Source: Synechococcus sp. Tobar12-5m-g (lineage in GTDB: Bacteria; Cyanobacteriota; Cyanobacteriia; PCC-6307; Cyanobiaceae). From it: a stretch of DNA of 64,000 nucleotides. The notes beneath the pieces are model-generated. The model saw nothing but the letters and a program-made list of their open reading frames with translations. It did no database searches and had not been told where the DNA came from. The DNA is taken from NCBI RefSeq assembly GCF_024345415.1, contig NZ_JAGQBB010000003.1:62001-126000 (forward strand), read 5' to 3'. Shown piece after piece: positions 28,482 to 50,800 of this stretch. How positions within the stretch are numbered: the first letter of the stretch is position 1; each line of letters opens with the position of its first letter. A program made the translations under genes and the position numbers.

Positions 28482-28769
28482 ATGGCCCCGCTGCGCCCCT
28501 CTTACAAGCCCGCCTTCAGTAGCTGCAGCGAGGTTCCCATCGAAGAGTGGGCCTATCTCGATGGCGAGGTGCTGGTGGCCAGCCGCAGCCGCAAGGTCTG
28601 CCTCACCTGCCATTGGTTCCGCCACCACGCCGGGGTCAATTGCATCCCGCTTCTGACCTGCCAGCTCCACCAGGGCCTGCTGGCCCACGGGGAGCACCTC
28701 ACCCGCCGCTGCCACGGCTGGACCGATGACATGGCCCGCCAGCGGGGCTGGTGCCCGGAGGCGGGATGA
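28482..28769 (+). CDS. Small Cys/His-rich protein
   Basis: 95 residues from ATG 28482, with AGGAG 8 bp upstream. It contains CLTCHWFRHHAGVNCIPLLTC and further Cys/His residues, suggesting zinc binding. An ATG 4 bp earlier is out of frame. The stop overlaps the next start (ATGA), so it is co-translated with the LOG-like gene. Function unknown. Confidence 0.6.
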   Translation: MAPLRPSYKPAFSSCSEVPIEEWAYLDGEVLVASRSRKVCLTCHWFRHHAGVNCIPLLTCQLHQGLLAHGEHLTRRCHGWTDDMARQRGWCPEAG

Positions 28770-29278
28770 GCAGGCGGCGGCCCGTGGTGGGTGTGATGGG
28801 CTCCGGAGAGGGCGCCTCCGCTCAGGCTGTGGCCCTGGCTGAGCAGCTTGGGGAGTGCATCAGCGCCAGGGGTTGGGTGCTGCTCACCGGTGGCCGCCCG
28901 TCGGGGGTGATGGCTGCGGCCAGCCGCGGCGCAGCTCGGGTGGAGGGACACCTTGTGGTGGGGGTGTTGCCCAATGAAGGGTACGGAGACGATAGGCAAA
29001 ACACAGCGGACCTGGATCTCGCCCTGTTCACCGGAATGGGTAAGGCCCGCAACGTGATCAACGTGCTCAGCGCCGACATGGTGGTGGTCTGCGGAGGCGG
29101 CGGCCCAGGCACAGCATCAGAAGCCGCCCATGCGATCAACGGCGGCAGGCCGCTTGTCCTGCTGGCGGTGCCGCCGCTGTGGCGGGACTTCTTCTGTTCC
29201 CTCGGTGGGGCAGTGGAGAGCGCGAGCGACGTGCAGGAGTGCTGCCGGTTGATCGAAGGACGACTCGCAGAGGCATGA
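28766..29278 (+). CDS. LOG/SLOG-family nucleotide-processing protein (TIGR00725-like)
   Basis: 170 residues. RPVVGVMGSGEG, LLTGGRPSGVMAAASRGA and VVVCGGGGPGTASEAAHAI show the Rossmann-like SLOG fold with the PGGxGT-like loop. Relatives include LOG phosphoribohydrolases, and other SLOG proteins sense nucleotides in conflict systems. ATGA overlaps on both sides tie it into a small operon with the Cys-rich and the 29275 genes. The true substrate is unknown. Confidence 0.75.
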   Translation: MSRRRPVVGVMGSGEGASAQAVALAEQLGECISARGWVLLTGGRPSGVMAAASRGAARVEGHLVVGVLPNEGYGDDRQNTADLDLALFTGMGKARNVINVLSADMVVVCGGGGPGTASEAAHAINGGRPLVLLAVPPLWRDFFCSLGGAVESASDVQECCRLIEGRLAEA

Positions 29279-33216: not shown

Positions 33217-33915
33217 ACATCAAATGCCAACCCTTGCCAGAGGGGCGGTAGCCGGGTCGTCCCGTTGCAGGCGCCCAGCGCTCGAACGATGACTCTAACC
33301 ACGCTGAATTACTAAGCCGGCGATTACGGCTGCTTGGTAGCCACTTGCCAGCAGGCTTTAGAACGGCTCCTGCTGCTCAGCCGAGGGCCACCTGTGCAGT
33401 GCTGCTGAACCGACTATCCCTACACCGAGTAAGAGGTCACGTTGTTGGAGGAAGGAGTAGGTGCTGCCGGCGATACTGTTTTTCTTGGAGCATGTTGGGG
33501 AGATCGATGTCGGGCTGTAGGCCGAACAAGCAGGCTGAACCCTTCATATGCAGGTTGAAGGGTGGCCTGTGGGTCTGAGGTAATAGTCTTCCATAGAGTG
33601 AGAGTTCAGTCGTCGACAGCAGCAAGCGGACAAGTAATGTCTACCAAATGATGGTCCAACTACATGTGGATCAGCACTGCCTCTGAAACCTTTGCCGAAA
33701 GCCTCCTCTGAAAGTCTTAGCCTAACGCCGGATTGCATCTCAGTTCCGTTATGCACACGTCATGTGTCAGAAATTTATGGCAGAATCCCCAGGGCATCAG
33801 GGATTTGCCAATCGCAATGGAAAGCATGAGCTACCTAGGCGGCGGTCTGGTCCAAGCCATGAGTCCATCACGGAACCGACCATGTAGTTGTTATGCAGCT
33901 TGTCTGAGGTGAACC
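33217..33915. other. Gap with falling GC content
   Basis: No gene is supported on either strand. GC drops towards 33.6-33.9 kb, marking the left edge of the low-GC cassette. A SD-like GAGGTG precedes the TTG start at 33916. Confidence 0.45.
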
Positions 33916-35220
33916 TTGCCGTATCAGACCGACGAAAGACTAAAGAGTTACCTCGACACGAATCAGCTCTACCGAGAGCAGATGTGCCGAGCGGTGCTTG
34001 CGACCGACCCACGGTTTTCGGAAGTGCGCCCACGGCACCCGCGTGGTGGTCCCGACGGGGGGCGTGACATTGAAGCCCTGTACCGAGGCGAACAGAAGGC
34101 CATAGGGGCGGTTGGCTTTGTCAATCAGGCTAACGATTCGAACGAGCAGAAGCGAGGCATAGAATCAAAGTTTGCGGCCGATCTCGAAAGCGCAGTAGCC
34201 GCAACCAACGAGCTTGGTGCATTTGTCTTCTTCACCAACATTAATTTAACCATTGGCGAGAAGAACACGTTCACACTGCAGGCAAAGTCACGCGGAGTGC
34301 CCTTCTGTGACATATTCGACCGCGAACGACTGAGAATCGATTTAGACGGACCAAATGGTTTCTTCATCAGGTTTCAGTACCTTGGGATCCCCCTCACGGA
34401 AGCGGAGCAGGCCAGCTTCTTCGCCCGATGGGGCGACGAGATTCAATCCGTCATCTCGAGCGGGTTCGATCGCATGGAGTCCGCTCTCAATCGGATTCTC
34501 TTCCTTCAAGAAAGCCGGGACCCAATCGTTCGCATTACAGTCGCGGTAGAGCTAGACAGGAAATACACAGCAGAGGAAATCGGCCACTTCCGATTTTTCT
34601 GTTCGCTATACCTGAAGGAGCCGAAGCTAGGTATCATGGCAATACTGTTCGGATCTTCGGACAAGTCTTGCCGAATGAGATCTGATGCCGCCTCTGATTT
34701 CTCGACACAGCAACCTGGAATCAAGTATGGAATCAGTAGCGGCCAATGGGAACGGCATATCACATACAGCAATGAGGATAAGCCTGACCAGCAAGAGCAA
34801 GATGAAGAGGAGAGATACACTCCTGTTGGTTCCTCCTCATCGATGGGGCCAGATGAGATTGAGTTTCTGTCTATCAGATATGACAAGGATCCGTTCTTCA
34901 GACTTCAGCCTGGGCTTGCTCTCAAAGATCTTGACGACTCAATATTCATTTTCTTTTCCAATAACACTCTATCCCATAAGATCCGAGCAGTTCATGTCTA
35001 TTCGAATGGCTACAAGCTTCAGGAGATCACCGAACTTACTATCGACGAATCGAAGTTCGAGCCGAAGCTCCCAGTTGACTTTTCCGAGGATGAGCTTGCC
35101 GACCCTTGGGTGCGTATTCGTCCGGTGGAGTTCTCATCTGCCTTTCATTTCCGGTTCTTCGAAGTGACGCCTACCCGACTTTTCTCCCCAGATCAAGTCA
35201 AGAACAGCCTCAATATATGA
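33916..35220 (+). CDS. PD-(D/E)XK-like protein of a low-GC accessory cassette
   Basis: 434 residues from TTG with GAGGTG upstream. The N-terminal 150 residues have GGPDGGRDIEALYRG and GAVGFVNQ, then AFVFFTNINLTIGEK. This pattern is seen in restriction-like nuclease domains of defence proteins that use D-x(n)-E/Q-x-K-like cores. The C-terminal half has no recognised motif. GC content is well below the neighbours. Proposed as a nuclease or sensor; the catalytic Lys is not clear (Gln/Asn in place), so activity is uncertain. Confidence 0.5.
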   Translation: MPYQTDERLKSYLDTNQLYREQMCRAVLATDPRFSEVRPRHPRGGPDGGRDIEALYRGEQKAIGAVGFVNQANDSNEQKRGIESKFAADLESAVAATNELGAFVFFTNINLTIGEKNTFTLQAKSRGVPFCDIFDRERLRIDLDGPNGFFIRFQYLGIPLTEAEQASFFARWGDEIQSVISSGFDRMESALNRILFLQESRDPIVRITVAVELDRKYTAEEIGHFRFFCSLYLKEPKLGIMAILFGSSDKSCRMRSDAASDFSTQQPGIKYGISSGQWERHITYSNEDKPDQQEQDEEERYTPVGSSSSMGPDEIEFLSIRYDKDPFFRLQPGLALKDLDDSIFIFFSNNTLSHKIRAVHVYSNGYKLQEITELTIDESKFEPKLPVDFSEDELADPWVRIRPVEFSSAFHFRFFEVTPTRLFSPDQVKNSLNI

Positions 35221-35379
35221 GCAGGGCGGAACTGCTCGGTAGCGGCACTGCATAACAAGCCCCTCGAGTGGACAAGCCGCCATCAAACATCTAGCATACG
35301 TTTTATAGACCTTGCCCGCCACTCAGGGGCAGCGTTAGGCCGCCAGCGATTTCCTGGCCTCTTCACAGGGTGAGAACGT

Positions 35380-36228
35380 ATGCCAGAGCAGTCGATTAAC
35401 ATCGTCACATTTAACGCCAACGAGCGCGACGCTATCGATTTTCTGCTTAAGGACATGTGCGGCAATGGAAGCGCTTGGAGACCGAAGCACGATAATCCTC
35501 GCTCGATCAGCCGCACGAACCCCAAGTGGCGCGTGACGCATGAACCATTGGAAGCTCAAGGAAATGTCATGGCGGCGACCCAGACTGCAAAGCTCTTCAA
35601 CCCGCGCAATAGACCGGATATGGTCATCTTTTATGGTTGTGCAGGTTCAAATGACACGGCACTAGTTGGGCATGTCTTTTTTGTTGGTACCGTGGCATAC
35701 GCATCCCTTGGGACCGTTGACGACGAGATCGAGCCCGCTGCAGAGCGCTTACGCGAGCTAGTTACACTGAAGCGGAAATGGCTAGATGAAACTATGATGG
35801 GGGGTGTTACGCCGTTAGTTGTGCATGTATTCGAAACTGGATCAGACACATCGAGTCGCGGTCTGCCTGCGACTACTGGCATTGATGTCGCTCATGTGAT
35901 CGCTACTGACAAAGTTGTAAAAGTAGCGGCAGTCCTAGCAACGCCCAAGCCGCCAAAGGAATGGACCTATTCGCACGCCTTGGCGTGGATGGCGACACAA
36001 AGCAAATACCCTGCGGTGCTAATCGAAATGGAGTCCTACGGTATCGCCGCAATCGCTGAAGCGCTCGAGATTAAAGAACGGGTACTCGTCATCCGCGTAG
36101 TGACAGACTGCCTTGTGGATAAAACAACATCAACATCAGATGAGTCGCAGCGAGAGTTGCTAATTGATGGTCGTCAAGCAGTTGCTATTGTTCTGGATGA
36201 GATTATCAGTCGTACCGGTGAGGGTTAA
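35380..36228 (+). CDS. Nucleoside-phosphorylase/MTA-SAH nucleosidase-like protein
   Basis: 282 residues from ATG. MVIFYGCAGS, GHVFFVGTVAYASLG, LIEMESYGIAAIAE and VLVIRVVTDCLVDK match the PNP/UDP phosphorylase superfamily (substrate Glu in EME, catalytic Asp region near VTD). In several bacterial immune systems this fold degrades nucleosides or ATP. Here it is stand-alone and 3 bp upstream of the next gene. An ordinary metabolic nucleosidase is possible, but the neighbours and length argue for a conflict role. Confidence 0.7.
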   Translation: MPEQSINIVTFNANERDAIDFLLKDMCGNGSAWRPKHDNPRSISRTNPKWRVTHEPLEAQGNVMAATQTAKLFNPRNRPDMVIFYGCAGSNDTALVGHVFFVGTVAYASLGTVDDEIEPAAERLRELVTLKRKWLDETMMGGVTPLVVHVFETGSDTSSRGLPATTGIDVAHVIATDKVVKVAAVLATPKPPKEWTYSHALAWMATQSKYPAVLIEMESYGIAAIAEALEIKERVLVIRVVTDCLVDKTTSTSDESQRELLIDGRQAVAIVLDEIISRTGEG

Positions 36229-36231
36229 GAC

Positions 36232-36942
36232 ATGGACCTAAAACAACTACTAGCTCAACGCACATATGAGTCTACACTAGACCACCTAACGGCAAAAACG
36301 ATACAGCGACGCGGCATTGGACAGGTTGCCATCGCGCAGCCGCAACAGATTGCCGCCCAATTGCAGGATCTTCGAAATTGGCAAGTTGATGCGCTGATCT
36401 CCTACTGTCGTACCGCCGTTACAGCCACTCACATGCAACACGGCGACAGTAAGGTTGTTGGCGATATGGATGCCGGGGAATCAACAGGTATCACGCACCT
36501 TTTGAGCGAACCTCGGCACGTGGCACGGCTCATCGTCAACGAGCTATCTCGTCGTGCGGCATTGGAAGGTCTCGGTAATGTGACGCCCGATTCGGTACTG
36601 TCTGCCAACGACACCAAGTTTTTGTCCCTAATTGGCTGGCTGGAGCGCAAGGGTTCAGGGCCAACGCCCGAATGGGGTTCACCCACGTCAAATGCGTTAT
36701 TGGCTAGTTGGCAGGCGGCCGCAGGTGTCATTGTTGGCGGCTTCGCGTTTCGCCTTGCCGGATGGCTTGCCGTGCAAAAAGGCTTGCCCAATAACGAACT
36801 CAACAACCCGGAAGAAATTGAGATTCTCTCCACCCTAGCCGATCGCGGAGTGATATTACCTAGGTGGTGGATAGGCCAGCTTGTGGAGGAGGGCCGCAAG
36901 CGCCTCAAGGAACTAGTGGACCGAAAGCCAAAGCGGCGGTAA
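36232..36942 (+). CDS. Unknown partner protein of the nucleosidase-like gene
   Basis: 236 residues; its ATG is 3 bp after the previous stop. It is helical, with a moderately hydrophobic segment near 155-180 (LLASWQAAAGVIVGGFAFRL) and a basic C-terminus. It is not recognised. The tight coupling implies it works with the nucleosidase-like protein, perhaps as sensor, inhibitor or membrane anchor. Confidence 0.65.
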   Translation: MDLKQLLAQRTYESTLDHLTAKTIQRRGIGQVAIAQPQQIAAQLQDLRNWQVDALISYCRTAVTATHMQHGDSKVVGDMDAGESTGITHLLSEPRHVARLIVNELSRRAALEGLGNVTPDSVLSANDTKFLSLIGWLERKGSGPTPEWGSPTSNALLASWQAAAGVIVGGFAFRLAGWLAVQKGLPNNELNNPEEIEILSTLADRGVILPRWWIGQLVEEGRKRLKELVDRKPKRR

Positions 36943-37047
36943 GAACCAAGATGCGCTCGTGGTTCATACGAGGTTGGTCTCAGTTGGCGGCCTTACCCGC
37001 CCATGCAGCTGATGGGCCAGTCCTTAGCAAGACCAAGAGGTGCACCC

Positions 37048-37365
37048 TTGGGTGAACTACATCTGAGTTACTTCAGAACACGTGGCATGTTTCGTGAAGC
37101 TCGTGATACCCTCGCGACCCACCCAGGCGACCTACGAGTACGGCTTGACATCCTCGACAAGGAGCTCTTCATGCTGCCAGAGACGCAGGTGCCGGAGGAT
37201 CTACACCAGGAGTACGCCGATCTGAGGAGGCGTTGTACCAAGCTCAAGGCAAGCAATGGCGAAGGCCCCATATCTGCAACGTTTCGGCGATCGCGAATAG
37301 CAACGTTGGAAGGGATCGCGCAGATCATTGTTGACCTCTGTCATGAGTTTGATGGGTTTTGCTAG
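37048..37365 (+). CDS. Small hypothetical protein
   Basis: About 105 residues if started at TTG 37048; ATG 37087 is an alternative. Charged helices (LRVRLDILDKELFMLPE, QEYADLRRRCTKLKA) suggest a coiled-coil or small regulator. No family is recognised. Confidence 0.45.
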   Translation: MGELHLSYFRTRGMFREARDTLATHPGDLRVRLDILDKELFMLPETQVPEDLHQEYADLRRRCTKLKASNGEGPISATFRRSRIATLEGIAQIIVDLCHEFDGFC

Positions 37366-37802: not shown

Positions 37803-38003
37803 ATGCCACGTCCTCGTTACCGACAGAATCCCCTGCCGCTGGGAGCAGAGGCACCATCCGCTGAACTGTTCCGACCTGAGCGACCGAACCAGCCGGGCTT
37901 GCAGGTTGCGAAGCAAGGTCAGCTGGATGTGGTGCCACTCGGGCTACTGTTCGATGAATCCCAGGATCTGGGTCCCGATCGTGGATCTACTCCCAACTCA
38001 TGA
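37803..38003 (+). CDS. Small hypothetical protein coupled to the Mrr-like nuclease
   Basis: 66 residues from ATG 37803. The stop overlaps the nuclease ATG (ATGA), the main reason to believe it is translated. It is Pro/Gln-rich and has no known motif. Confidence 0.4.
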   Translation: MPRPRYRQNPLPLGAEAPSAELFRPERPNQPGLQVAKQGQLDVVPLGLLFDESQDLGPDRGSTPNS

Positions 38004-39052
38004 CCCTCTGGCTGATCCGCTCAGGTTCCCGCGGCGAACACGAGCAGAAGTTTCTTGATGAGGGCCGTAGCTACGTGGCCTGGGATGGCCTGGATGTCGA
38101 CCTCGCCTGCCTCACCGAGCGGCAGGAGCTCATCGCCGCGTTGGCCGAGCGCTACCCGGAGGAGAAGCCCAAGGCCCTTATTAACTGGTCGGCGCAGGTG
38201 TGGGCATTCGGGCGGGATATCGCGGAAGGCGATTGGGTGGTGATGCCCTCCAAGCTCCAATCAGGGATCTACTTCGGTGAGATCACCAGTGGCTATCACT
38301 ACAATCCGTTGGGGCCGAATCCCTACTTCCATTGGCGCAGCGTCAACTGGTTCAGTGGCCTGATCCCCCGCAGCGCCTTCCCGCAGGACCTGTTGTTTTC
38401 GTTCGGGGCGTTCCTCACCATCTGCCGCATCCAGCGGAACGATGCAGAAGCGCGGGTACGGGCGATGGCGGCAAACAATTGGCGTCCGGAGACCGCTGGT
38501 GCCAATACGGCAAGCGTGCCGTTACCAGGTCAGGGTGAACCCATCAGTGATGCCACGGAAGCCGGCCGCATCAACCTCGAAGAGCTTGTCGCCGACCAGG
38601 TGGAGCGGCAGATCGAAGCCAGGTTCAAGGGGCATGGGCTCACCGTGCTGGTGGAGGCGATCCTCCAGGCAGAGGGCTACAGCACCTATCGCAGTCCCGA
38701 GGGGGCCGATGGCGGCGCAGACATCCTTGCGGGAGGGGGTGAAATGGGCTTCGGGAATCCCTCGATCTGCGTTGAGGTGAAGTCTGGCGATGGGCCGGTG
38801 GATCGCCCCACGGTCGACAAGCTGATCGGGGCCGGGCAGAAGTTTGGCGCCGAGTCCTGTCTGTTTGTGAGCTGGAGCGGCTTCAAGCCCAATGTGCAGA
38901 AGGAACTGGCGCGTGATTTCTTTCGGGTTCGGCTCTGGAGCCGCAAGGATCTGCTGGAGAAGCTCTTTACTCACTACGGCCGGTTGCCGGAGGAGATCCG
39001 TCTGGCGTTACCCCTCAAACGGGTGTGGATGGTGGCAAACCAGAGCGATTGA
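38000..39052 (+). CDS. Mrr-family restriction endonuclease next to BREX
   Basis: 350 residues. The N-terminal half (about 1-145, with QVWAFGRDIAEGDWVVMPSK and IYFGEITSGY) resembles an EVE/Mrr-N-type reader. The C-terminal Mrr catalytic domain has GADGGADI (Asp241) and CVEVKSGDG (Glu259, Lys261), a PD-(D/E)XK site. It points towards brxL with only a 4-bp gap. Such nucleases often cut modified DNA, complementing BREX, which blocks unmodified phage DNA. Confidence 0.85.
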   Translation: MTLWLIRSGSRGEHEQKFLDEGRSYVAWDGLDVDLACLTERQELIAALAERYPEEKPKALINWSAQVWAFGRDIAEGDWVVMPSKLQSGIYFGEITSGYHYNPLGPNPYFHWRSVNWFSGLIPRSAFPQDLLFSFGAFLTICRIQRNDAEARVRAMAANNWRPETAGANTASVPLPGQGEPISDATEAGRINLEELVADQVERQIEARFKGHGLTVLVEAILQAEGYSTYRSPEGADGGADILAGGGEMGFGNPSICVEVKSGDGPVDRPTVDKLIGAGQKFGAESCLFVSWSGFKPNVQKELARDFFRVRLWSRKDLLEKLFTHYGRLPEEIRLALPLKRVWMVANQSD

Positions 39053-39071
39053 GCCGTCAAGGCTTGACGGC
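39053..39071. terminator. Hairpin at the convergent nuclease/brxL junction
   Basis: GCCGTCAA and TTGACGGC pair perfectly around a GGC loop. The hairpin begins right after the nuclease stop and includes the brxL stop codon. It lacks a strong T-run, but its position fits a bidirectional terminator. Confidence 0.55.
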
Positions 39072-41267
39072 GATATAGCTGATCTCACATCCCTTGGTCA
39101 ATCGGGCCTCTTGAACGACGGCCGCAGCGTTAAAGGGAGAAGACTCAAACCGTTGGAAGAGATCCAAGCCGCGATCGAGGGCAATTTTCCAGCCGGTGTT
39201 GGTGGTGAGGCTGCGCGCATGGAAGTTGGGGCTGGCGTCGATCTCCCAGGAAAAGGGAGTACTGGTTCCCGCGAAGGAGTCCTGGACCTGGCCCAGAATT
39301 TCCACCTGCCTCTCCAGGGTCTCTTGATCGGAGCCCGTGATCAAATGCACGGTCACCTCATCGCCCATAGGGGTGATCTCGTTCACCATGCGCAGGAACT
39401 CCACGAGGTTGCGGATCTGGTGGAAGGCGCGGATGTAGGGATCCCGGACAATGATCCCGGTGGTGCCAGTGAGGTAGTCACCGAAGAGGCGACGGTAGCT
39501 CCAACCCTTGGAGTTTTCCGGGACAACCAGATGGTGCTCCTTAAGCTTTGAAGGCTCTGGTGGCTGTGGGGCCACCTCAGCTGCGACGGCTGGAGAGGGA
39601 GGGGACTCACCGTTGGAGGCAACTGAGGCAGTGGTCTTGGATGCCGCAGGCTGACCGCCCTCGCCAGGGGCGGGCTCTGCCCTGTTGATGTCTGCCTCGC
39701 TGGATAGGGGCCGAAGCCCGGAGAAGGCGGGGTACTGCTTCTCCTCAGGCGTCATCATCGTGACCTCTTGGCCGGTCTCCAGGTCGCGGTAGATGAAGTC
39801 GTTGGTTCGGAAGGTATCGTCGATCCTGAGGATCTGCTCTCGTACCCGGCGACGGCACTCCATAGCGAACTCCAACAGCTCGGCAATCTCCTCCTTGCTG
39901 GCCTTGCCATCGGGATGGAGGATCTTCATCAGGCCTGAGAAAGTCTTCTCGAAACCGGTCTGGTCGCGGGTGGAGACCTCCGAGCTGATCTCGAAGAACG
40001 GCTTGTAGAGGCCGGTGAAGTCTTCCGTGCGCAGGTGCTTGAGCACCTCAGCGATGTAGTCCACCACGAAGCCATAGCCGGTGCAGAACAGCTCATGGCG
40101 CACCGGTGCCACTTCCCAACCAGGGTTGAAGGCATGGATGCGATCAAGGAAGGCCGAGTCGATGTACTTGTCTGGCAGCGGCTCGTAGAAATGGGAATGC
40201 TTGAGCATGTAGGCCACCGACTTCTGGGTGTTGCCCATGAACACCATCGACGCTTCTGCGGTGAGCTGCTCGATGCCCCTTGAGAAGGTGCGGTTGGCCA
40301 TGTAGTTCTTCATGATGTCCACCAGGGTCTTGTCGACCTTCTTGTCCTTGCCGGCGAACTCGTCAAAGCAAATGCAATCCCAGTAGCCCACCAGGCCGAT
40401 CTTGCCGCTGGCATTGCTCACGAAAAGCTTTGGTGCGGTGACCTCCGAGCCTGAGATCAGCATGCCGTGGGGGGAGAACTCGGCAAAGATGTGGGATTTG
40501 CCGGTTCCCTTGGGGCCCAGTTCCAGCAGGTTGTAGTTGCGCTCGCAGTAAGGGATCAGCCGAATCAAGGTGAGCAGCTTGGCGCGGCGGCTGAAGTGCT
40601 CGGGATTGAAGCCCACGCTTTGCATGAGCACATCCATCCACTCGTCGGTGCTGAACTTGGCGCGGGCGGCGAGAAACTCGTCGTGGTCAACACCAGCCAC
40701 CTGGATCGGTTTGACGGAGGAGATCTGCCAGGGGCTGGCTTTGGGATCGGTGGGGAGTTCGTACTCGACATCGGTGATGGCCCAGATGCCGCCCACCAGA
40801 AGCTTGGGGTAGCGCTTGATGAAGTCCACATCGATGGGGACCTTCTTGAGGCCGAGGTTGGTGAACTCCATCTCGTAGAAGCCGCCCTTGTCGTTGAGCT
40901 CCACAGTGAGCTTGTCGATCACCTTGTGGGTGCCGCGCTCTTTGATGGTGGACTTAATCAGTTCCGCTTGGTTGCGGTGCACGTAGTGCTTGGAGAGGAT
41001 GCGCCGGACCGATTCCAGCCCCTCGGCAATGAAGGCGGGGTCGTCGGTGGCGCAGTGCTGGCCGAGCAGGTACTCGAGAACGTAGGTGGGCACCACCGCG
41101 TTTTGCTTGAGCTCAGTGGTGAGGTCCTTGCGGACCACCAGACCTGGGAAGTGCTCAAGGATCTTCTGGTCCAGGGCGCTGGGCGTGCGCAGGGAGGCCT
41201 CGCCACTGCTGTCGGTGGTCTTGGCAGTGGGGTCGGGGTTGGTGGCGGTCACGGGCTCAGAAGTCAT
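39057..41267 (-). CDS. brxL: BrxL, Lon-like AAA+ protein of BREX
   Basis: 736 residues from ATG 41267. The AAA+ core has P-loop GPKGTGKSH (251-259) and CICFDEFAG near 300. A Pro/Ala-rich linker (about 540-600) leads to a Lon-protease-like C-terminal domain (ENSKGWSYRRLFGDYLTG). BrxL is the DNA-binding AAA+ effector candidate of type I BREX. It overlaps pglZ by 11 bp and is the last gene of the operon. Confidence 0.93.
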   Translation of the reverse strand: MTSEPVTATNPDPTAKTTDSSGEASLRTPSALDQKILEHFPGLVVRKDLTTELKQNAVVPTYVLEYLLGQHCATDDPAFIAEGLESVRRILSKHYVHRNQAELIKSTIKERGTHKVIDKLTVELNDKGGFYEMEFTNLGLKKVPIDVDFIKRYPKLLVGGIWAITDVEYELPTDPKASPWQISSVKPIQVAGVDHDEFLAARAKFSTDEWMDVLMQSVGFNPEHFSRRAKLLTLIRLIPYCERNYNLLELGPKGTGKSHIFAEFSPHGMLISGSEVTAPKLFVSNASGKIGLVGYWDCICFDEFAGKDKKVDKTLVDIMKNYMANRTFSRGIEQLTAEASMVFMGNTQKSVAYMLKHSHFYEPLPDKYIDSAFLDRIHAFNPGWEVAPVRHELFCTGYGFVVDYIAEVLKHLRTEDFTGLYKPFFEISSEVSTRDQTGFEKTFSGLMKILHPDGKASKEEIAELLEFAMECRRRVREQILRIDDTFRTNDFIYRDLETGQEVTMMTPEEKQYPAFSGLRPLSSEADINRAEPAPGEGGQPAASKTTASVASNGESPPSPAVAAEVAPQPPEPSKLKEHHLVVPENSKGWSYRRLFGDYLTGTTGIIVRDPYIRAFHQIRNLVEFLRMVNEITPMGDEVTVHLITGSDQETLERQVEILGQVQDSFAGTSTPFSWEIDASPNFHARSLTTNTGWKIALDRGLDLFQRFESSPFNAAAVVQEARLTKGCEISYIAVKP

Positions 41268-43776
41268 CAAAATCGCTTCCGAAAGCCCTTTGCAGCTTGA
41301 GCTCCACAGTCTTGCCTGGATCCGGCACCGGGTCATTCACCCCTGCCACCCAGCGCTCGAAGCGCAGTTCGATCGGTTGGTTGTTGTAGGCCTCGGCCGC
41401 GTTAGAAAGCACCAGCTCCAGCCGCTGTTCCCGTTCGCGCGGCTCGGCGGCTGTGGAGTCAAAGACCAGGGTCTTGGATTCACAAAGCAGGGTCCCATCC
41501 GCCTTGGCATAGAGAGCCACCTTCAGGCGGATGGGCAGGACAGTCGGGGAGATGGCGTCCCGCTGGAATAGGGAGACCGGCACCTTACCAGTTGTCACTT
41601 TGCTCGGAACCCGCAGCACCTCAACCTCCACCAGACAGGAATCGTCCTTGCGCTCGCGCTTGAGCTTGATCACTGGCACCACCACCTCTTGCAGCAAGGG
41701 ACCGCCGTGCACGAAGCGTGAACCCGAGCCCTTGATCGGAAAGCGTCCCAGGGACAGGGGGAACACGGCACTCCAGGTGCCCATGAAGCCGAGGGCCTGG
41801 GCCGTGAACACCTTCAGCCCTCTGGCTGGATCGATCTCTTCTCCGTAGGCAAAGCGACGGTTCTTGAAGGTCAGGGCATCCGCCTTCGGGAAGACGGCCG
41901 TATCGATGGTGTCGACCGCTTCCTGCTGGAAGAGGAAGCCGTGATCGGCGGTGATCACCACATGGCTGCCGTTGAGGTTGGCGATCTTGCGCAGGATCGC
42001 CTGCAATTCCTCGAAGGCCTGCTCCACCGCCTCGAAGGTGCTGGCCTCGGTGTTGAGCTTGTCACCCACCTGATCGATGACGTTGTGGTAGATCACGATC
42101 AGGTCATGGTCCTTGGTGAGGGTACGGCCATCGGTGCGGCTGTTGAGAGCCAGGAAATCACCCGCGCGGATGGCCTTGGCACGGCCACCGGTGGCACCCT
42201 TGAGGATCTTGTCGCGGTTGTTGGTACCGCTGGCGCTCTGGCCATCAATCGCCACGGTGGCATCAGCGGGGTTGATGGTGATCTGGGCCCCAGGCAGCAA
42301 GGCGGCCATGCCCAGCTGGGTGTAGCTGGGCAGGGCACCAAAGAGCGCCTCCACCTCGGTGCTCCATCCCTTGCCATGGGTGAGCTTTTGGGCCAACTCC
42401 CGGGCGGCCTCGTAGCGAAGGGCATCGGAGACCACCACAAACAGGCGCTGGCCTTTGGCCAGCACGGGATTCACGTGGCGGGCATAGAACTCTCGCTGCC
42501 TGGGGAGGGCTTCTGCTTGCCAGGTGGTGAGCTTGGCGACCTGATCGCTCCAGTGATCGGAAAGGGGCAGCAGGAAGTTGTTGACGTAGTGGTTCTCCAC
42601 CCAACCCTTGAGCCCTTCCATCAACCCGGGCTGGCCGTAGGCGCGCAGGTTGGCGATGCAGAGGCGATAAGCCTGATCGAGTTGCCACCAGCGCTCCACG
42701 TAGAGCTGGAGGCCTTGATCGAATGAGGCCACGCTGAGCTCGGTGGTCTGCAGAAGGCTGCGCAGCTGAATCGCCTGCTCGATCGCCTGATAGCCGCGGC
42801 GGTGCTTCTCGAACCAGGTGGAACTGCGGCGAGAGCGGATCAACTCCAACAGGGTGCATGCGGGTGCGCCTGCCTGGAAGCCCTGCACAAGCCGGTGGAG
42901 GGTGTAGCGATCAAACAGCTCGAAGGTGTCGTCGTCACCGAGTTGGGGATCCGTGGCATCGGCAAGCTGGGCCTCGATCTGCAGGGTATCCGCCAGCAGG
43001 GTTGACCAGGCCTCAAAGGCAGGCCGGCTGCTGAGGCTGTCTTTCCAGAAGCTCAGGAACACCCGGCCGTGGGGCTTGAGGTCGGCCTTTGCCTGGAGGG
43101 GGTTGACGCTGCGGAACAGGGAAACGGCGAAATCCCGCAGATTCGGCTGGGTGCTGCCGTAGCCAAATTTGGCTACCACCGCTGCCCAGAAGGCCTCCAC
43201 CAGAGCGTGGCTGCCGTAGGCCTCCTGCACCTCATCGCTGAGGGGAAGCTCGTGGGGTTCGGCCCGGCTGAGGAAATGGAGCAGAAGCTTGTCGATGTCA
43301 GCGGGGACCCCCGCCAGCACCGCCATCATCTTGAGGCGGATCGACCTGGCGTCATCGGTGGAGCGCAGTTGCTCCCTGAGCTTCTGGGTGCGCACCATCG
43401 AGCGAAAGAAGGCGCTGTGCTGCTTGGCCAGATCGCGGAATTCCAGGGTGAGCCCGGCGTCCTGGATGTCGAGGGAGGCGCGGTCGGCCTTGAACTCATG
43501 GCCGGCGAGGAGCAGATCCAGGAGCCAGTTGTCTTTTTCCTCTGGCTTCTCGCTGGGAATGTAGAGCAGGAAGCGCTGATGGCTGGGGCCACGGGCCACC
43601 AGCACCTTGCTGGCGAACTCATTGCCTTCCACCCGCCGTTTCTCAACGCCTTTGCCGGTATAGCTCACAAACACATCGCTCCATTCGCCAGGGGCGTCGT
43701 ACCAAATCACCACTCGCTTGCGGGCCAGGGCCGCATCGAGGCTGTCGTGGACGCGGGTGGTGGTAGGGCTCTGCAT
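41257..43776 (-). CDS. pglZ: PglZ, alkaline-phosphatase-fold protein of BREX-1
   Basis: 839 residues. The N-terminus RVVIWYDAPGEW and the phosphatase-like core VVVSDALRYEAAREL (about 446-460) mark the family, with ITADHGFLFQ at about 605 supplying metal ligands. PglZ is a defining BREX component that forms complexes with PglX and BrxB. It starts 5 bp after the upstream GTPase gene. Confidence 0.95.
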   Translation of the reverse strand: MQSPTTTRVHDSLDAALARKRVVIWYDAPGEWSDVFVSYTGKGVEKRRVEGNEFASKVLVARGPSHQRFLLYIPSEKPEEKDNWLLDLLLAGHEFKADRASLDIQDAGLTLEFRDLAKQHSAFFRSMVRTQKLREQLRSTDDARSIRLKMMAVLAGVPADIDKLLLHFLSRAEPHELPLSDEVQEAYGSHALVEAFWAAVVAKFGYGSTQPNLRDFAVSLFRSVNPLQAKADLKPHGRVFLSFWKDSLSSRPAFEAWSTLLADTLQIEAQLADATDPQLGDDDTFELFDRYTLHRLVQGFQAGAPACTLLELIRSRRSSTWFEKHRRGYQAIEQAIQLRSLLQTTELSVASFDQGLQLYVERWWQLDQAYRLCIANLRAYGQPGLMEGLKGWVENHYVNNFLLPLSDHWSDQVAKLTTWQAEALPRQREFYARHVNPVLAKGQRLFVVVSDALRYEAARELAQKLTHGKGWSTEVEALFGALPSYTQLGMAALLPGAQITINPADATVAIDGQSASGTNNRDKILKGATGGRAKAIRAGDFLALNSRTDGRTLTKDHDLIVIYHNVIDQVGDKLNTEASTFEAVEQAFEELQAILRKIANLNGSHVVITADHGFLFQQEAVDTIDTAVFPKADALTFKNRRFAYGEEIDPARGLKVFTAQALGFMGTWSAVFPLSLGRFPIKGSGSRFVHGGPLLQEVVVPVIKLKRERKDDSCLVEVEVLRVPSKVTTGKVPVSLFQRDAISPTVLPIRLKVALYAKADGTLLCESKTLVFDSTAAEPREREQRLELVLSNAAEAYNNQPIELRFERWVAGVNDPVPDPGKTVELKLQRAFGSDFDDF

Positions 43777-43781
43777 CGCGA

Positions 43782-45500
43782 TCAGACCGCAGTGGGATAG
43801 AGCTCAGCCAGCAGGGCCATCAACTGCTTGCGGTGTGCCGCGAGACCCTCCACCAGGGACTTTGTGGACGCTTGATGGGCCAGGATCTCGTCACGGGCAC
43901 GTGTCAGGGCGGAGGCGATCTTCTCGATGATCTCTAAGTCGTACTGGGACTGATAAACCTCGAACAGTCGGGCTGCAGTGGCCTCGGCACTCTGTTGGAG
44001 GGCGGAACGGAAGACCAGCAGCTCCTTCTCGCGTTGACGATCCCTTTTCTCTGCTTCAACTCCCTGGTTGATGACGTCGTAGACCTCGAAGGCGGAGATG
44101 GCAATGCTCAATCCAATCATCAAGTTGCCAGCTCCTTTGACGGCATTAACGGCTCCCCATGGCTTGAACTTGAATCCAAGCAACTTGCCGCCTTCGTAAA
44201 TCACCTTATGAAGGCTGCCACCGGCCACCTCCTTGGCGTCGTACAGCATTTTTGACTGGGTTGCACCGGGTTTGAGAACGGCATCTCGCCCTTGATCGAG
44301 CAACTTCTTGAACGTCTCTTTCAATCCGCCCACGCCACGCTGGGGCGGAGCGCCATCACGCGGTGCGGACTCTGTTAATGAAGCCTCCACCTTGGCGTAG
44401 TAGTCGGCCACAAAGTTCTCCTTGGCGAACTCCTCAAGCTTGGCCTCGATTATTTGGTAGTCACGCTGGAGGGTGGCATTGAGCTCCGTGTAGGCAGCAG
44501 CATTGATGGCCTCCCAGCGCTGATCGAAGGCTTGCTTGTTGGCTTGCTCCTCTGAGCCGAGCTCACCTTCGATCAGCTTCTCGCCGAGTTCGAGCAGCTG
44601 CTGGATGCAGCTGGTTCCGATCTGCTTCACCTCAGCAGCCGTGCGGCTGCGTTGGTTCAGAACAATGCGATGCTGCTGATTGAGAAGGAATAGTTTGGGA
44701 TCGTCCCCAAAGGTGGGTTCCGGCAACGAGGCAAGGCTCTGATCAATGGCGTTCAAGCCTAGGCGGATCGGCGGATCCAATCGGGCCAGCAGGCCCTGGC
44801 TCTGCACCCAGCTGTTCAGGCCATCGATGAAGCCAGGGAAGCGGCTGAAGCTGACCAATTGCTCGTTGCCTGTCGCGATGCCATCGCGGTAGTCCTGGGC
44901 ATCAATGAAGGCATGGGGAAATTTGTTGAGTTGGTGAGGCGAAAGGGTGCGATTGATTGACTCGGTGAGGTTGCTGATGTACTTATCCATATATTCAACA
45001 TCCTCCATGGAAAGCTTGTTGATCACTAAAAAGATCTTGCCTGCAAATCCCTGTTCAAAGGCAAGCTGGCGAAAATCCCTGGCCGTCACCTCATCAAACA
45101 GGTTGGTCGTGAGGCAATAGACGACCAGATCCGACTCCCGCAGCGCCTTCTGGGCTTTTTCGTCATGGTCAATCCGGTTGGCATAGAGCCCTGGGGTATC
45201 CCAGAGTTCAACGCCGCTCCAGGCGTAGGCTGTGACTGAGTCGGTGGTGACATCAGCAGAGATCTTGATCTCCCGATTGCCTGTAAGGGCTGAGATGATC
45301 GTGGATTTACCCGCGCTGAACTGCCCACTGAACGACAGGCTGAGCAGGGAGCGGCCGGCAATGGATTCCCGCTGTTGTTTCAGCTCAGCAGCCTGCTGTT
45401 GGATGGCTGGCTCCGGCCTGGCGAGCAGAAAAGCCTGCAGTTCATCCATGCTACGGGTGCTGCGCCGTTGAAGGTCGGCGAGCTGAAGTGAAGGCGACAT
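43782..45500 (-). CDS. Dynamin-like GTPase embedded in the BREX operon (second of pair)
   Basis: 572 residues. G1 GQFSAGKST is at 59-67, a G2 Thr is in DVTTDSVT, and G3 DTPG is at 101-104. The G4 position reads NKLS (161-164) instead of NKxD. Long helical segments follow, with a hydrophobic patch near 445-465 (GAGNLMIGLSIAISAFEVY). This is the layout of bacterial dynamin-like or LeoA-type proteins that work at membranes, often as pairs. It sits 21 bp after the first GTPase gene and 5 bp before pglZ. It is not part of the standard six-gene BREX-1 set; its role there is inferred. Confidence 0.8.
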   Translation of the reverse strand: MSPSLQLADLQRRSTRSMDELQAFLLARPEPAIQQQAAELKQQRESIAGRSLLSLSFSGQFSAGKSTIISALTGNREIKISADVTTDSVTAYAWSGVELWDTPGLYANRIDHDEKAQKALRESDLVVYCLTTNLFDEVTARDFRQLAFEQGFAGKIFLVINKLSMEDVEYMDKYISNLTESINRTLSPHQLNKFPHAFIDAQDYRDGIATGNEQLVSFSRFPGFIDGLNSWVQSQGLLARLDPPIRLGLNAIDQSLASLPEPTFGDDPKLFLLNQQHRIVLNQRSRTAAEVKQIGTSCIQQLLELGEKLIEGELGSEEQANKQAFDQRWEAINAAAYTELNATLQRDYQIIEAKLEEFAKENFVADYYAKVEASLTESAPRDGAPPQRGVGGLKETFKKLLDQGRDAVLKPGATQSKMLYDAKEVAGGSLHKVIYEGGKLLGFKFKPWGAVNAVKGAGNLMIGLSIAISAFEVYDVINQGVEAEKRDRQREKELLVFRSALQQSAEATAARLFEVYQSQYDLEIIEKIASALTRARDEILAHQASTKSLVEGLAAHRKQLMALLAELYPTAV

Positions 45501-45521
45501 GGCGGGGGAGCGCTTGGCGGG

Positions 45522-47840
45522 TCAGTGCAGGGTTGAGGCCAGGAGGGAGATCTGCTGCTGGCAGCGGTAAATCTGCCCGGCAAAGGCTTGCAGAGCCGTC
45601 TTGGTGCTTCCGAAGGCGAGACTGTAGGAGGAGGCAAGTTGATCCCGCTGGGTGATCAGCAACTGATCGAGGTTGTTGATGAATGGGTCTTTCTGATCCT
45701 TGATGGATCGTAGAAGCTGTTTGCAGAGCTTCTCCTGGGCTTCTTTTCGGCGGTCCTCCATGCCTGGAAAGAAACTTTCAAACCAATCTTGCATCCAGCC
45801 TGTAATGGGGCCAACAATCCAACGCAATGGAGCAAAAGCTATCCCCACTCCCACGACAAGAATCTTGAGGACAATCCTGATGTTTTGTCGCAACGACTCT
45901 TCGTAGCCAATATCAATCATGTCATCGAGACTGTGGCTTAGTCGGATGGTCTGCATCTGAAACTTAAGCCGCTCCTGGATGTCGTCTTGGAGTTGTTGCA
46001 GACGGGCGACGATCTGAATCTTGAGTTCGGCCACGAGGGCATTCGCTTGTGTAGTGAGCTTGGCCTTTTCAATCTCCTGCTTCCAGAGACGCTCCAGCTC
46101 CTGACCATTCTTCTTGAGATGGGTCTTGCTGAATCGCTGGGCCTGGAGTTCAAGCGGGGTGAACAGCGCGCTGCCCTTGCTGGCGGCGAGTCGGCGTGTG
46201 TCTTCAAAGATGTCAACCACACATTTACGCGCACTCACTTCTGCGTCCGCGAGGACCCTGGCCTGCTCCGACAGTCGCTGGTGCAGGGCCTTCAGCTCTG
46301 CGCTGATCATTTCGAGCTCCAATTGCGGGTTCTTGCGCAACGTGTCGCGCCGCAGAGCAGGGGCCTTAGCGGTGATCAACTCATCGAGCGCTTCGAGGAA
46401 ATGATCGATTCGGCTGAGCTGACGCCACTGCTCCGCTTCCGAAGGATTTTGGTTCTGGCTTGCATGCAACGCGGCAACAGCATGGATCGGAATGATGGGG
46501 ACGGCCAGGCTGCCGTTCTCCCCAATGGCCCTGGTGAGAAGTTCCCGAATGGTGATGATGTTGCCGACAATCGACTGCTCTCCCTCCATGGAAAACATTG
46601 GCTCAAGTCGCCTGCGCAGGTCAACAATCCCCTCCTTTGCTTTCGCCTTTACGTTAAGAAGGATTAGAAAGGCTATGCCACGAGCATGCAGCTTTTTTAT
46701 CAGCTCAGGTTCGCAGGGCATGGTGGAGATGTTGTCGGTAACAATACAGACGAAATCGGTTTCAGGGAAGATGCTGCGGGCCACAGCACTGTCGCGAATT
46801 TCCGCCTGTTCAAACGAGGCCCCTTGGCCACCGGCTGCGCCGATGCCGGGGGTATCGATCAACCGCATCCCGAAGAAGTCATAGGCGCGGTTGTAACGGG
46901 TGAACCCCTGGCCGCCATCGCCAATGGAGGCTTGATCGCGACCGGTGAGAGTCGAGATCAATGTGCTCTTCCCTCTCTTGCTACCACCAACGGCGGCGAT
47001 GCAGAAGCGTTTCAAACTGCGCTGCTTGGCCTGCAGATCGTGGTTGAGGCGAGCCAGATCGCTCGACACCAAGCGATCTAGAGTTGAGCGCTCGGTATTC
47101 AGCACCATCTGGAGCTGGCGCCGGCATTCGACAGGCAGCTCGGCAGCGATCGGGTCGGTGCTGATGGCAGCAAAGCCTGCCTGCAAGGCGATTAGCTGGG
47201 AGCTGGCGGATTCCAGCACTGCCTGGGTGTGGGGCATCAACTCCGCCGTGAGCTCATCCATGCTCTCAAGGCTCTGGTTATAGCCCTTGTGATTGAAGAG
47301 GCTGCGCCGCCTCCAGGTACGTAAGCGATGGCTCTGGCGGAGTAGGGCAGCGAGCCTGTCCACACGCTCCTGGCCCAGCTTGAGATCCAGCTGGCGCAGT
47401 GCCCTGATCCTGCGGGAGGGGGTGGGTCGGGGTTGGTTGAGCTCCTTCCTGATGCTCTGAGTCCGTTCGCGGGCGGCCGTGAGCCTTTCTTGCGTGGAGG
47501 CTCTGGTTTGCCCAAGCAATTCAGCCAGGCGTTCAATCGTGGCGATCTCCCGTGGATCGGAGTGGTCGTCGACGGTGGTGATGTCGGCCAGTAGATCGAG
47601 CAAGCCCTCTTGATCTGCAGCAGTCAACTGCCGAAGGGCCTCGACGTTCACCACGGGATCGTCGTGGGCGACCATCAGCCTCTGTTCAGCTTTGGCGAGC
47701 TCCATGCCCCTGGCCTCTCGGTAGGCTCTGAACCAGGAATGGGAGCTGAGCAGGGCGAGCTCATGGACATCCACCAGCTGATCGGCAAAGACCAGCTCGG
47801 CGATGGCCTCCAGGACGGGGTCGGGGGTGGGATCGCTCAT
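45522..47840 (-). CDS. TerB-like domain fused to dynamin-like GTPase (first of pair)
   Basis: 772 residues from ATG 47840, overlapping the pglX stop by 4 bp (ATGA). Residues 1-112 look like a TerB-type helical domain (IAELVFADQLVDVHELALL, then ITTVDDHSDPREIATIERLAELLG). The GTPase has G1 GGSKRGKST (285-293) and DTPG (329-332); G4 is degenerate (NVKAK). Long helical stalk regions follow, and a hydrophobic segment lies at 657-682 (KILVVGVGIAFAPLRWIVG). This suggests a membrane-active, dynamin-type partner of the 43782-45500 protein. Confidence 0.8.
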   Translation of the reverse strand: MSDPTPDPVLEAIAELVFADQLVDVHELALLSSHSWFRAYREARGMELAKAEQRLMVAHDDPVVNVEALRQLTAADQEGLLDLLADITTVDDHSDPREIATIERLAELLGQTRASTQERLTAARERTQSIRKELNQPRPTPSRRIRALRQLDLKLGQERVDRLAALLRQSHRLRTWRRRSLFNHKGYNQSLESMDELTAELMPHTQAVLESASSQLIALQAGFAAISTDPIAAELPVECRRQLQMVLNTERSTLDRLVSSDLARLNHDLQAKQRSLKRFCIAAVGGSKRGKSTLISTLTGRDQASIGDGGQGFTRYNRAYDFFGMRLIDTPGIGAAGGQGASFEQAEIRDSAVARSIFPETDFVCIVTDNISTMPCEPELIKKLHARGIAFLILLNVKAKAKEGIVDLRRRLEPMFSMEGEQSIVGNIITIRELLTRAIGENGSLAVPIIPIHAVAALHASQNQNPSEAEQWRQLSRIDHFLEALDELITAKAPALRRDTLRKNPQLELEMISAELKALHQRLSEQARVLADAEVSARKCVVDIFEDTRRLAASKGSALFTPLELQAQRFSKTHLKKNGQELERLWKQEIEKAKLTTQANALVAELKIQIVARLQQLQDDIQERLKFQMQTIRLSHSLDDMIDIGYEESLRQNIRIVLKILVVGVGIAFAPLRWIVGPITGWMQDWFESFFPGMEDRRKEAQEKLCKQLLRSIKDQKDPFINNLDQLLITQRDQLASSYSLAFGSTKTALQAFAGQIYRCQQQISLLASTLH

Positions 47841-50800
47841 GAATCCTCCTTTGCCGCCAGCCCTGGGATCGGAGCCAGCACGCCGGTGAGCTTGAGGTAG
47901 TTCACCTTCACGCCGTCGTCGAGATCGAGCGAGATGCGCTGCTGGGCCAAGGGCAGGAGGGCCTCCCGCTCCCAGTCCTGGCATTCGCGCAGCACCTTGG
48001 CGATCTTTTCGAGCTCCTTGCGCCCGGCGGTGCGCTTCTTGGCGGGGAGAGCCTCGTTGAGTTGATCCAGCTCGAGCTGGTGCTGGCGGGCCTCCAGCTT
48101 GAGCAGGAAGGGCCGCAGGTAGTTGTTGAGCACCAGGTTGAGCGTGTCCTTGGTGTAGCGGTGCAGGTAGATCAGGCAGGCGAAGCCCTTCTTGGGGCTC
48201 TGCACCAGCCAGTAGATCGGTCGCTTCTTGTAGGTCTGGAGATGATCTTTGTAGAAGTCGGTGCAGAAGTACTTGCGGATGTCCTTGCCAAGGACGGTTT
48301 CAATGAAGCGCAGGTTCTCTGCAAGGGGACTGCATGGGAAGGTTGCCACGAGGAACTCACGGCTGCGGGCCACGATGTCGTCCTCGAACCACTCGCCATC
48401 GAGCACCGGGATGATGCCGTCCTCGTCGGGGGCGAAGGTGAGTTCGGCCAGGGGCTTCCCCACTTTCTCCAGAAACTCACGCAGGGAGTCACCGGCGTTG
48501 GCGATGATGAGGCCGGGCTGGTCGGGGGAATAGCGGCCCATCATGCAGCCGACGCCATAGGAGAGTAAGGCGGCCACATCCGTGCGGGCCTCGGCGCGGG
48601 CGAGGGTGATCTGGTCTTCGGGTACTTCGGGCTGCAACTCGCCGTCGAGGCCGTAGGCGGCGATCAAGAGCCGGTTGTTCTCAGTCTCCAGCTCCTGCAT
48701 CCGGCGGATGGCGGCGGTGCTCTGCGCCTCCCAGTTCCGCCAGCTCGCCTCCAACGCCAGACCCTTCATCCCCGGCCGCAGCAAAGGCTGGTCGAGGAAG
48801 TCCCACGAGGTCTCGAAGTTGTCCCAGTCGGCGCGGGCAATTTGAACCAATTCATCAACGATAGCTTTGAGTTCTGGCCATTCAGATCGAAGGCTGAGAG
48901 GAAGGCTTTCGATTTGTTGGATTTCGATATTTAGGGTTGGGGCGAGGCCTGCCAAAATTGCTCTGGCAATTATCGTGTTACAAAATGAGAGGACTTGGAT
49001 TCGGTCGTTCTCGCTGCTAGCAAATATTGAGCTGCCCGCGACATCGAAGATGAAACCCGTAGGAAATTTCTTAAAAGACGGGAAGCTAGAGCCGACTTTA
49101 GAAAATGAAACGGATTCTCGAAAGTAGAACTCTTGGTTCTTTGCCACAAAGTTTGGATTACCTTTCAAGTAGGGGTATTTACTGACTATCGCGCTTTTGA
49201 TGTCCGCTCCATCATTTCGCCAATTAACAATGTAATGTTGATTGCCCCACCATTTCCGAAACTCGCCACCTTTGTTATAGGGAAACCAGATTTCTTGACA
49301 TTCAATCGTGGCCATTTGAGAGTCTAAACCAAACCCGATATGGCTGTGAGAGACTTCGTGCCAAGAGCGCACAAACAGTGCGTTCTCCGTGGTTGCCAAG
49401 CCCTGCCTCGCGGTGAAGTTATCACCCAGTACTTTGTTGTTTGGGAATAAGTCCAATATCTTCTCAGATAGCATGAATGCAATTGGGCTACTTGGTATTT
49501 TCGCAAAAATTGTCTGGTGCAGCCTACGAACCTCACCCGTTTCGAGTTTCGTCTTGAAGACTTGCTCCTTATCGGCGGTCTGCGGAGCATCATTTAGATT
49601 TACGAAGACACTGCGACTGCCACGTCGAGTCCTTTCAAGGACAAAAGCGCAAGCCTGGACGACCTTGGAGTTCAATTCCGGAAAGCTATTATAGCCGATT
49701 TGAATCAGCATGTTGATGTACTGATTTGCCAATACACTTAGACGCAATGCCTGGTAAGACGAAAGGAACATCCAGCTTTGCATTGTTACAAGAGCTGAAA
49801 AACCTTTTGGCTGAACAAGCCGCAACCCCAGTTCGATGAACATTGCGAAAGTGTCGGATTTGGAGTCTGGAAAATGTTGTTGTCCGTATTCTTTGAGCGC
49901 CGTCCCCATTTGCTTTCCACCCATATACGGAGGATTAGCCACCACTACGTGTTGCCGCTGGGTGAGCGCCTGGGCTTGTTCGAGCACGCGCAACAGTTTG
50001 CTGTGCGTCTCGCGCAGGAAGAGCTGGCCGCCGAGGTCCTTCGCTTCGATTGCCTCACGCACGAACTCCAGGCTCCGTCCATCCATGGCAGGCTGAATCA
50101 GCGAGCCGAAGGTCTTCGCTTCCTCGAACTGGCGGAGCAACTTGAACAGGCTCTGGTCGAAGAGTTCGCCAAGGCCGAGAGCTTCGATGTAGACGTTCAG
50201 TTCTTCCCCGTCAAACCGCACATTCTGCAGCTCAAGGATTTGGGGCCGCAGAAGCTGATCAGGCTGGAAGAAGCGCCGGGATTGTTCCCTGGCCTTGAAG
50301 ACGAGAGCCAGCTCGGCGAGCTGGGCGGCGCGGGGGCAGATCTCCAGCCCGTGCAGATTGTGCCGGAGGATGAGGGCGGGGATCTCGGTGGGGGCGTAAC
50401 CTTCCTCCTCGTAGATAAGGGTGAGCAGGTCGAAGGCGTAGGTGAGCATGTGCCCACTGCCGCAGGCCGGATCCAGCAGCTTGATCTCTTCCGGCTTGCT
50501 GATCCTCAGGAAATCTGTTTCCTCTTCGCCCTCGATGTAGTACGGCATCTGCTCGCGCAGCTTCGAACTGGGCCGGTTCAGCAGCCATAGGCGCCCCAGG
50601 GAATTCTCAACCAGGTAGCGCACGATCCAGTGGGGCGTGAACAGCTGGGTGACAGCGGGGATGTCTTCCGTGGGCACTGCCTTCTTGCGGGCCATCACCT
50701 CATCTTTTTTCTCGGCGATATAGAACTGATACAGCCAGCCCAGGAGCTCCACGTCGTCGCAGTCGGCGTCACTGATCGAGCGTCGGAAGCCCGCCGCGAT

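Follow-up and report, generated by a model that had tools for sequence, protein, structure and literature searches.

The locus described here lies within a 64,000 nt stretch of contig NZ_JAGQBB010000003.1 of Synechococcus sp. Tobar12-5m-g, hereafter the window, and comprises three plus-strand genes together with integron recombination sites (Table 1). A stretch of 159 bp separates gene 1 from the PNP gene and contains an attC site. All three open reading frames claimed in a preliminary description of this DNA are present, and the 3 bp spacing that it gave for the PNP and partner genes is borne out by their coordinates. The low GC content that it claimed likewise stands: gene 1, the PNP gene and the partner gene have 51.1, 51.6 and 55.0 % GC, respectively, whereas the window as a whole has 63.3 %. 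Third-position GC is 52–58 % in the three genes as opposed to 77–81 % in the Mrr-like, brxL and pglZ genes beside them.

Table 1. Positions of the genes and recombination features, in window coordinates
Feature	Position	Strand	Description or basis
attI site, integrase gene missing at the locus	33734–33890	+	Homology to intI-flanking segments; insertion point after G33890
5′ junction of cassette 1	33890–33896	+	G|TTATGC, exact complement of its own R″
Integron gene cassette 1	33891–35334	+	1444 bp, single gene and attC; junction 7/7 complementary
Gene 1	33916–35220	+	434 aa, TTG start
attC of cassette 1	35250–35340	+	BLAST relatives, covariance-model matches in relatives, bottom-strand fold
PNP gene	35380–36228	+	282 aa, PNP/nucleosidase-superfamily protein
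Partner gene	36232–36942	+	236 aa, no assigned family, probably helical
Possible worn-out attC of the PNP–partner unit	36990–37030	+	GCCTTAC, GCCCAT/ATGGGC hairpin, CTTAGCA; not significant

The locus is flanked by a segment with a helicase-like ORF on one side and by a BREX locus on the other, the genes brxL and pglZ being placed 2 kb downstream by family profile searches. A PglX-like protein, judged by eye, is also encoded in the minus-strand BREX locus. The genes brxL and pglZ, followed by two genes for LeoA/LeoBC-type dynamin-like GTPases, form one minus-strand run (39057–47984), and the brxL product ends in an MIT_C/phospholipase D-like domain (112 bits). Immediately ahead of the BREX genes lies a plus-strand gene (38000–39052) for an Mrr-type restriction endonuclease, which matches the PADLOC candidate family PDC-S02 very strongly (477 bits). 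A 120-aa plus-strand ORF follows the partner gene (37003–37365); its GC content of 54.5 % is cassette-like, and no family or homologue was detected for it. An SLOG-type LDcluster4 protein (28751–29278, plus strand; E 3e-40) is encoded on the side of the island that bears tRNA-Arg.

Recombination sites, integrases and the first cassette

When positions 33217–33900 were compared with genomes of the order, a match was found in the same genome on contig C33 (1228–1387, minus strand; 71 % over 160 bp, E 3.8e-15), approximately 220 bp downstream of the intact integrase gene of that contig. The match ends at window position 33892, i.e. at the cassette junction G33890|TTATGC, and because the end of this intI-flanking match falls at the junction, the stretch from 33734 to 33890 is, on sequence homology, an attI site. 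Its core, TCACGGAACC...TAG..GTT, is also located downstream of intI in the genomes G144 and G010, and a similar core, TCACGGAACC..CCAATGACTAGTT, is found in several other genomes. Pairing of GCCTAAC with GTTAGGC had made 33720–33896 a candidate for a long attC; this was rejected, as the match to the C33 segment shows an attI.

No integrase gene or trace of one was detected within the window. Elsewhere in the genome two intact integron integrases are encoded (C33:1607–2524 and C27:967–1932, both on the minus strand), which are 69 % identical to each other. They score 461 and 446 bits, both above the integron-integrase cut-off of 265 bits (TIGR02249). One of the two aligns end to end with the solved IntI4 (E 3e-84), and a contig bearing one of them also encodes the photosystem II protein PsbQ, which marks the host as a cyanobacterium. 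A broken integrase copy is located at the end of contig C12. An integrase above the cut-off is encoded by 52 of 250 sampled genomes of the order, and cyanobacterial integrons have been on record from the earliest surveys of genomes onward (PMC2426708; see also PMC9668308). In three relatives (L080, 5692–6435; L085, 2594–3337; L071, 3017–3790) intI is followed, a few kb downstream, by a gene for another tyrosine recombinase that has about 30 % identity with IntI. The first gene behind the C33 attI (L008, 77–943, minus strand) encodes 288 aa with a hydrophobic start and is presumably the first cassette of the C33 integron; the contig ends before its attC.

The attC site of cassette 1 reads GCATAAC AAGCCCCTcGAGTGGACAAGCCGCC ... 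CCTTGCCCGCCACTCAGGGGCAGC GTTAGGC, with GCATAAC as R″, GTTAGGC as R′, an imperfect stem GCCCCT(c)GAGTGG / CCACTCAGGGGC and one extrahelical base. By BLAST alone, contigs C31 and C28 of this genome yield four relatives of the site (76–73 % identity, E 1.9e-9 to 4e-5). They flank short genes, among whose products are a HicA/HicB pair and an antidote of the HI1420 type. A covariance model built from five attC sites, the window's own among them, detected strong copies in 10 of 12 genomes of the family; the BLAST relatives and the matches in other genomes are independent of the inclusion of the window site. Several relatives carry attC copies 4–5 kb downstream of an integron integrase and on the same strand. 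The ends of C28 (L023, 463–2557) and C31 (L024, 189–1232) break within an integron array and have approximately 120 bp in common; the cassettes of these arrays encode a PD-(D/E)XK-like protein, HicA/HicB, the HI1420-type antidote and others of unassigned function.

In a cassette that was once circular, the start is the exact complement of the R″ box. Here GTTATGC at 33890 and R″ GCATAAC at 35250 are complementary at 7 of 7 positions, by which gene 1 and the attC form what is, as read from the sequence, a complete integron gene cassette. On C31 the same holds for an array cassette lying between two attC sites, which opens with GTTCGAA and has TTCGAAC as its terminal R″ (7/7), and the junction pair of a C28 cassette is complementary at 5 of 7 positions.

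This arrangement resembles the chromosomal integron of the Treponema denticola type, in which intI is transcribed toward attI (PMC3607928): the intI genes of the relatives point toward attI, cassettes and attC sites share a strand, and the junction rule is followed. Unlike that type, the present locus has no intI (the two intact copies are located elsewhere), its host is a cyanobacterium and only one attC is recognizable.

Origin of the PNP–partner pair and rival readings

The region is probably a small integron array without an integrase gene, consisting of attI, cassette 1 and the PNP–partner pair as a likely older cassette, with a putative effector function for the PNP protein. Cassettes would have been captured by IntI-mediated recombination between attI and attC, cassette 1 being the most recent insertion because it stands directly next to attI, and the integrase would probably have acted in trans; the C33 or C27 enzyme may be responsible. 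When cassette 1 is removed on paper, G33890 is joined to TTAGGC35335 (TAGTTG + TTAGGC), and this restores TAGTTGTTAGGC, the form found in the attI of G144 and G010 (TAGTAGTTAGGC). The restored form suggests that the PNP–partner pair stood first behind attI before cassette 1 arrived. There is thus good reason to regard the pair as an older, second cassette, which would comprise two genes and have a 3′ attC that has decayed or been deleted. A covariance-model search past 36942 detected no significant attC. The GCCTTAC box at 36990 agrees with the expected GCCTAAC at 6 of 7 positions (covariance-model score 3.9 bits, E 3) and, together with its small hairpin, is at best a remnant.

The lack of an attC behind the partner gene, and the presence of a single site of the attC family in the window, would also fit a reading in which only gene 1 is a cassette and the PNP–partner pair is a resident two-gene unit behind attI that never moved as a cassette. 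However, the segment behind attI is the insertion side for cassettes, the PNP gene begins 39 bp past the attC R′ box and on the same strand as cassette 1, a placement also seen for genes of the C28 and C31 arrays, and the GC content of the pair is low like that of cassette 1. Residence is considered unlikely, if still a serious candidate.

Placement of the PNP protein in the PNP superfamily, as initially proposed, is confirmed by PF01048 (E 1.4e-7; 31.6 bits against a gathering cut-off of 25.1). The motifs GCAG (residue 86), EMES (216) and RVVTD (239–243, TD at 242–243) are present, so that the Glu and Asp motifs are kept; EMES and RVVTD presumably hold the ribose-binding Glu and catalytic Asp conserved in the superfamily, as in MTA/SAH nucleosidases. 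The retained catalytic motifs, and a fold family that is mostly metabolic, are compatible with the pair being a horizontally acquired nucleoside salvage enzyme with a subunit of no assigned family. Against this, the PNP protein falls far below every NCBIfam equivalog cut-off (at best 27.8 against 124.7 bits, for futalosine hydrolase; 12.9 against 73.8 for the MTA/SAH nucleosidase TIGR01704), a typical full-length member of the superfamily, which by eye resembles MTA phosphorylase, is already encoded on another contig (C44:59135–59854), and the pair is located in an integron beside BREX. The preliminary description had called for a comparison with housekeeping enzymes, and in it the PNP protein proves distinct from the host's own; a metabolic role appears rather improbable.

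A single weak match to PADLOC (PDC-M60C, E 0.0025) was obtained for the PNP protein, and none of Pfam, NCBIfam, PHROGs and PADLOC assigns the partner protein to a family. The partner is predicted to be probably helical, with a hydrophobic stretch and possible helix at residues 163–181; AlphaFold single-sequence models are of low confidence (pLDDT 38). Homologues of either protein were absent from plasmids and phages (tblastn) and from viral contigs and approximately 85,000 genomes in pattern scans, which reach close relatives only. HMM searches likewise found no PNP homologue in 299 genomes of the order and no partner homologue in 386 genomes of the phylum.

The gene 1 protein has no Pfam match. 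The only full-length homologue found is 48–50 % identical and stands alone in an Azospirillum Mu-like prophage. The N-terminal domain (about residues 1–195) also occurs in two further genomes of the phylum, in one of them as a fusion with Fic; this Fic-domain protein, whose N-terminal half is the gene 1-type degenerate nuclease-fold domain, adjoins a phage-type integrase (L035, 970–2097, minus strand). The earlier designation of the gene 1 protein as PD-(D/E)XK-like survives in part: there is no significant match and the ExK motif is absent, whereas a weak match of a distant relative of the domain to Mrr_cat (E 0.12) and the GGxDxGxD motif fit the designation. Since GGxDxGxD is conserved in all four N-domain relatives and ExK is replaced by VGF or VYF in all four, the domain is likely a restriction-endonuclease-like fold without the nuclease triad; the C-terminal half belongs to no assigned family. 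In a profile search of the PDB, nothing stronger emerged than a weak match to the N-terminal domain of DnaB (E 0.007).

The preliminary description grouped the three genes as one cassette and a possible second defence module. The word cassette proves literally true for gene 1, which is a separate integron cassette; it fails for the three genes as one unit, and a single module is not supported, as the attC splits them in two. A system with the gene 1 protein as sensor, the PNP protein as effector and the partner as regulator would be in keeping with the shared strand, the adjacency and the similar GC content, and promoter-like and terminator-like sites between the genes are not stronger than chance. 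Because the attC stands between gene 1 and the PNP gene, a one-operon defence system of three genes is rejected as improbable; the junction structure shows separate arrival, and the solitary prophage homologue of gene 1 also argues against it. That the attI- and attC-like stretches are chance inverted repeats or terminators, as a bottom-strand fold that by itself is only moderately unusual (z −2.3 to −3.1) might allow, is most improbable, being already contradicted by several homologous sites in this genome and its relatives (E to 1e-26), a number of which adjoin integrases.

Proposed function and relation to known systems

A defence role for the locus can plausibly be inferred: PNP proteins include a family of effectors, the setting is an integron and BREX genes lie nearby. 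For the PNP–partner pair, defence is likelier than metabolism because integrons are reported as antiphage libraries and BREX adjoins. The PNP protein would act on purine nucleosides or nucleotides as an N-glycosidase or phosphorylase, and the small helical partner, translated with it, may hold it in check or trigger it. Upon phage infection the PNP protein would deplete the purine pool and growth would stop. The best guess at the function of the pair is that of a purine-depleting effector governed by its partner. More tentatively, the pair could be a new type of two-gene immune or toxin–antitoxin module that is carried as an integron cassette, with the PNP protein consuming purine nucleotides under the control of its small helical partner. 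The 434-aa protein would constitute a single-gene unit of its own, independent of the pair; its catalytically dead nuclease-fold domain may recognize nucleic acid, and its C-terminal half would act.

PNP effectors are known in CBASS (Cap17), Detocs, pAgo and NLR-like systems, and those of CBASS and Detocs are reported to act by purine depletion (PMC10952713). The present protein shares with them the PF01048 domain, the Glu and Asp motifs and a defence neighbourhood. It differs in that it is a stand-alone protein of 282 aa, accompanied by a small helical partner, and that no sensor protein of those systems is encoded next to it; family profile searches of the three proteins found neither Detocs/Cap17 partner proteins nor a SLOG domain. 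The pair is also similar to the HicAB-type cassettes on C28 of the same genome in having two short genes per cassette, overlapping or nearly so. There is no sequence relation between them, and the substrates of the PNP family are nucleosides or nucleotides, not mRNA.

Cassettes of Vibrio chromosomal integrons and of mobile integrons were reported in 2025 to be antiphage libraries (cited in PMC12444791). These integrons resemble the present one in their cassettes of unknown function and their two-gene cassettes, here located beside a BREX locus. The present array differs in its cyanobacterial host and in cassette proteins that lack relatives in the defence libraries.

Several parts of cyanobacterial integrons can now be read, namely a pair of intact integrases, an attI that is shared and a family of attC sites found in many genomes of the family. 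Candidate defence cassettes could be obtained simply by listing the content between attI and attC across these genomes. Here a cassette platform lies within a BREX-bearing island, a setting that would tie the capture of genes to phage defence in phototrophs under heavy cyanophage pressure. If the proposed function is correct, the integrons of these small-genome cyanobacteria may be defence stockpiles, as in Vibrio.
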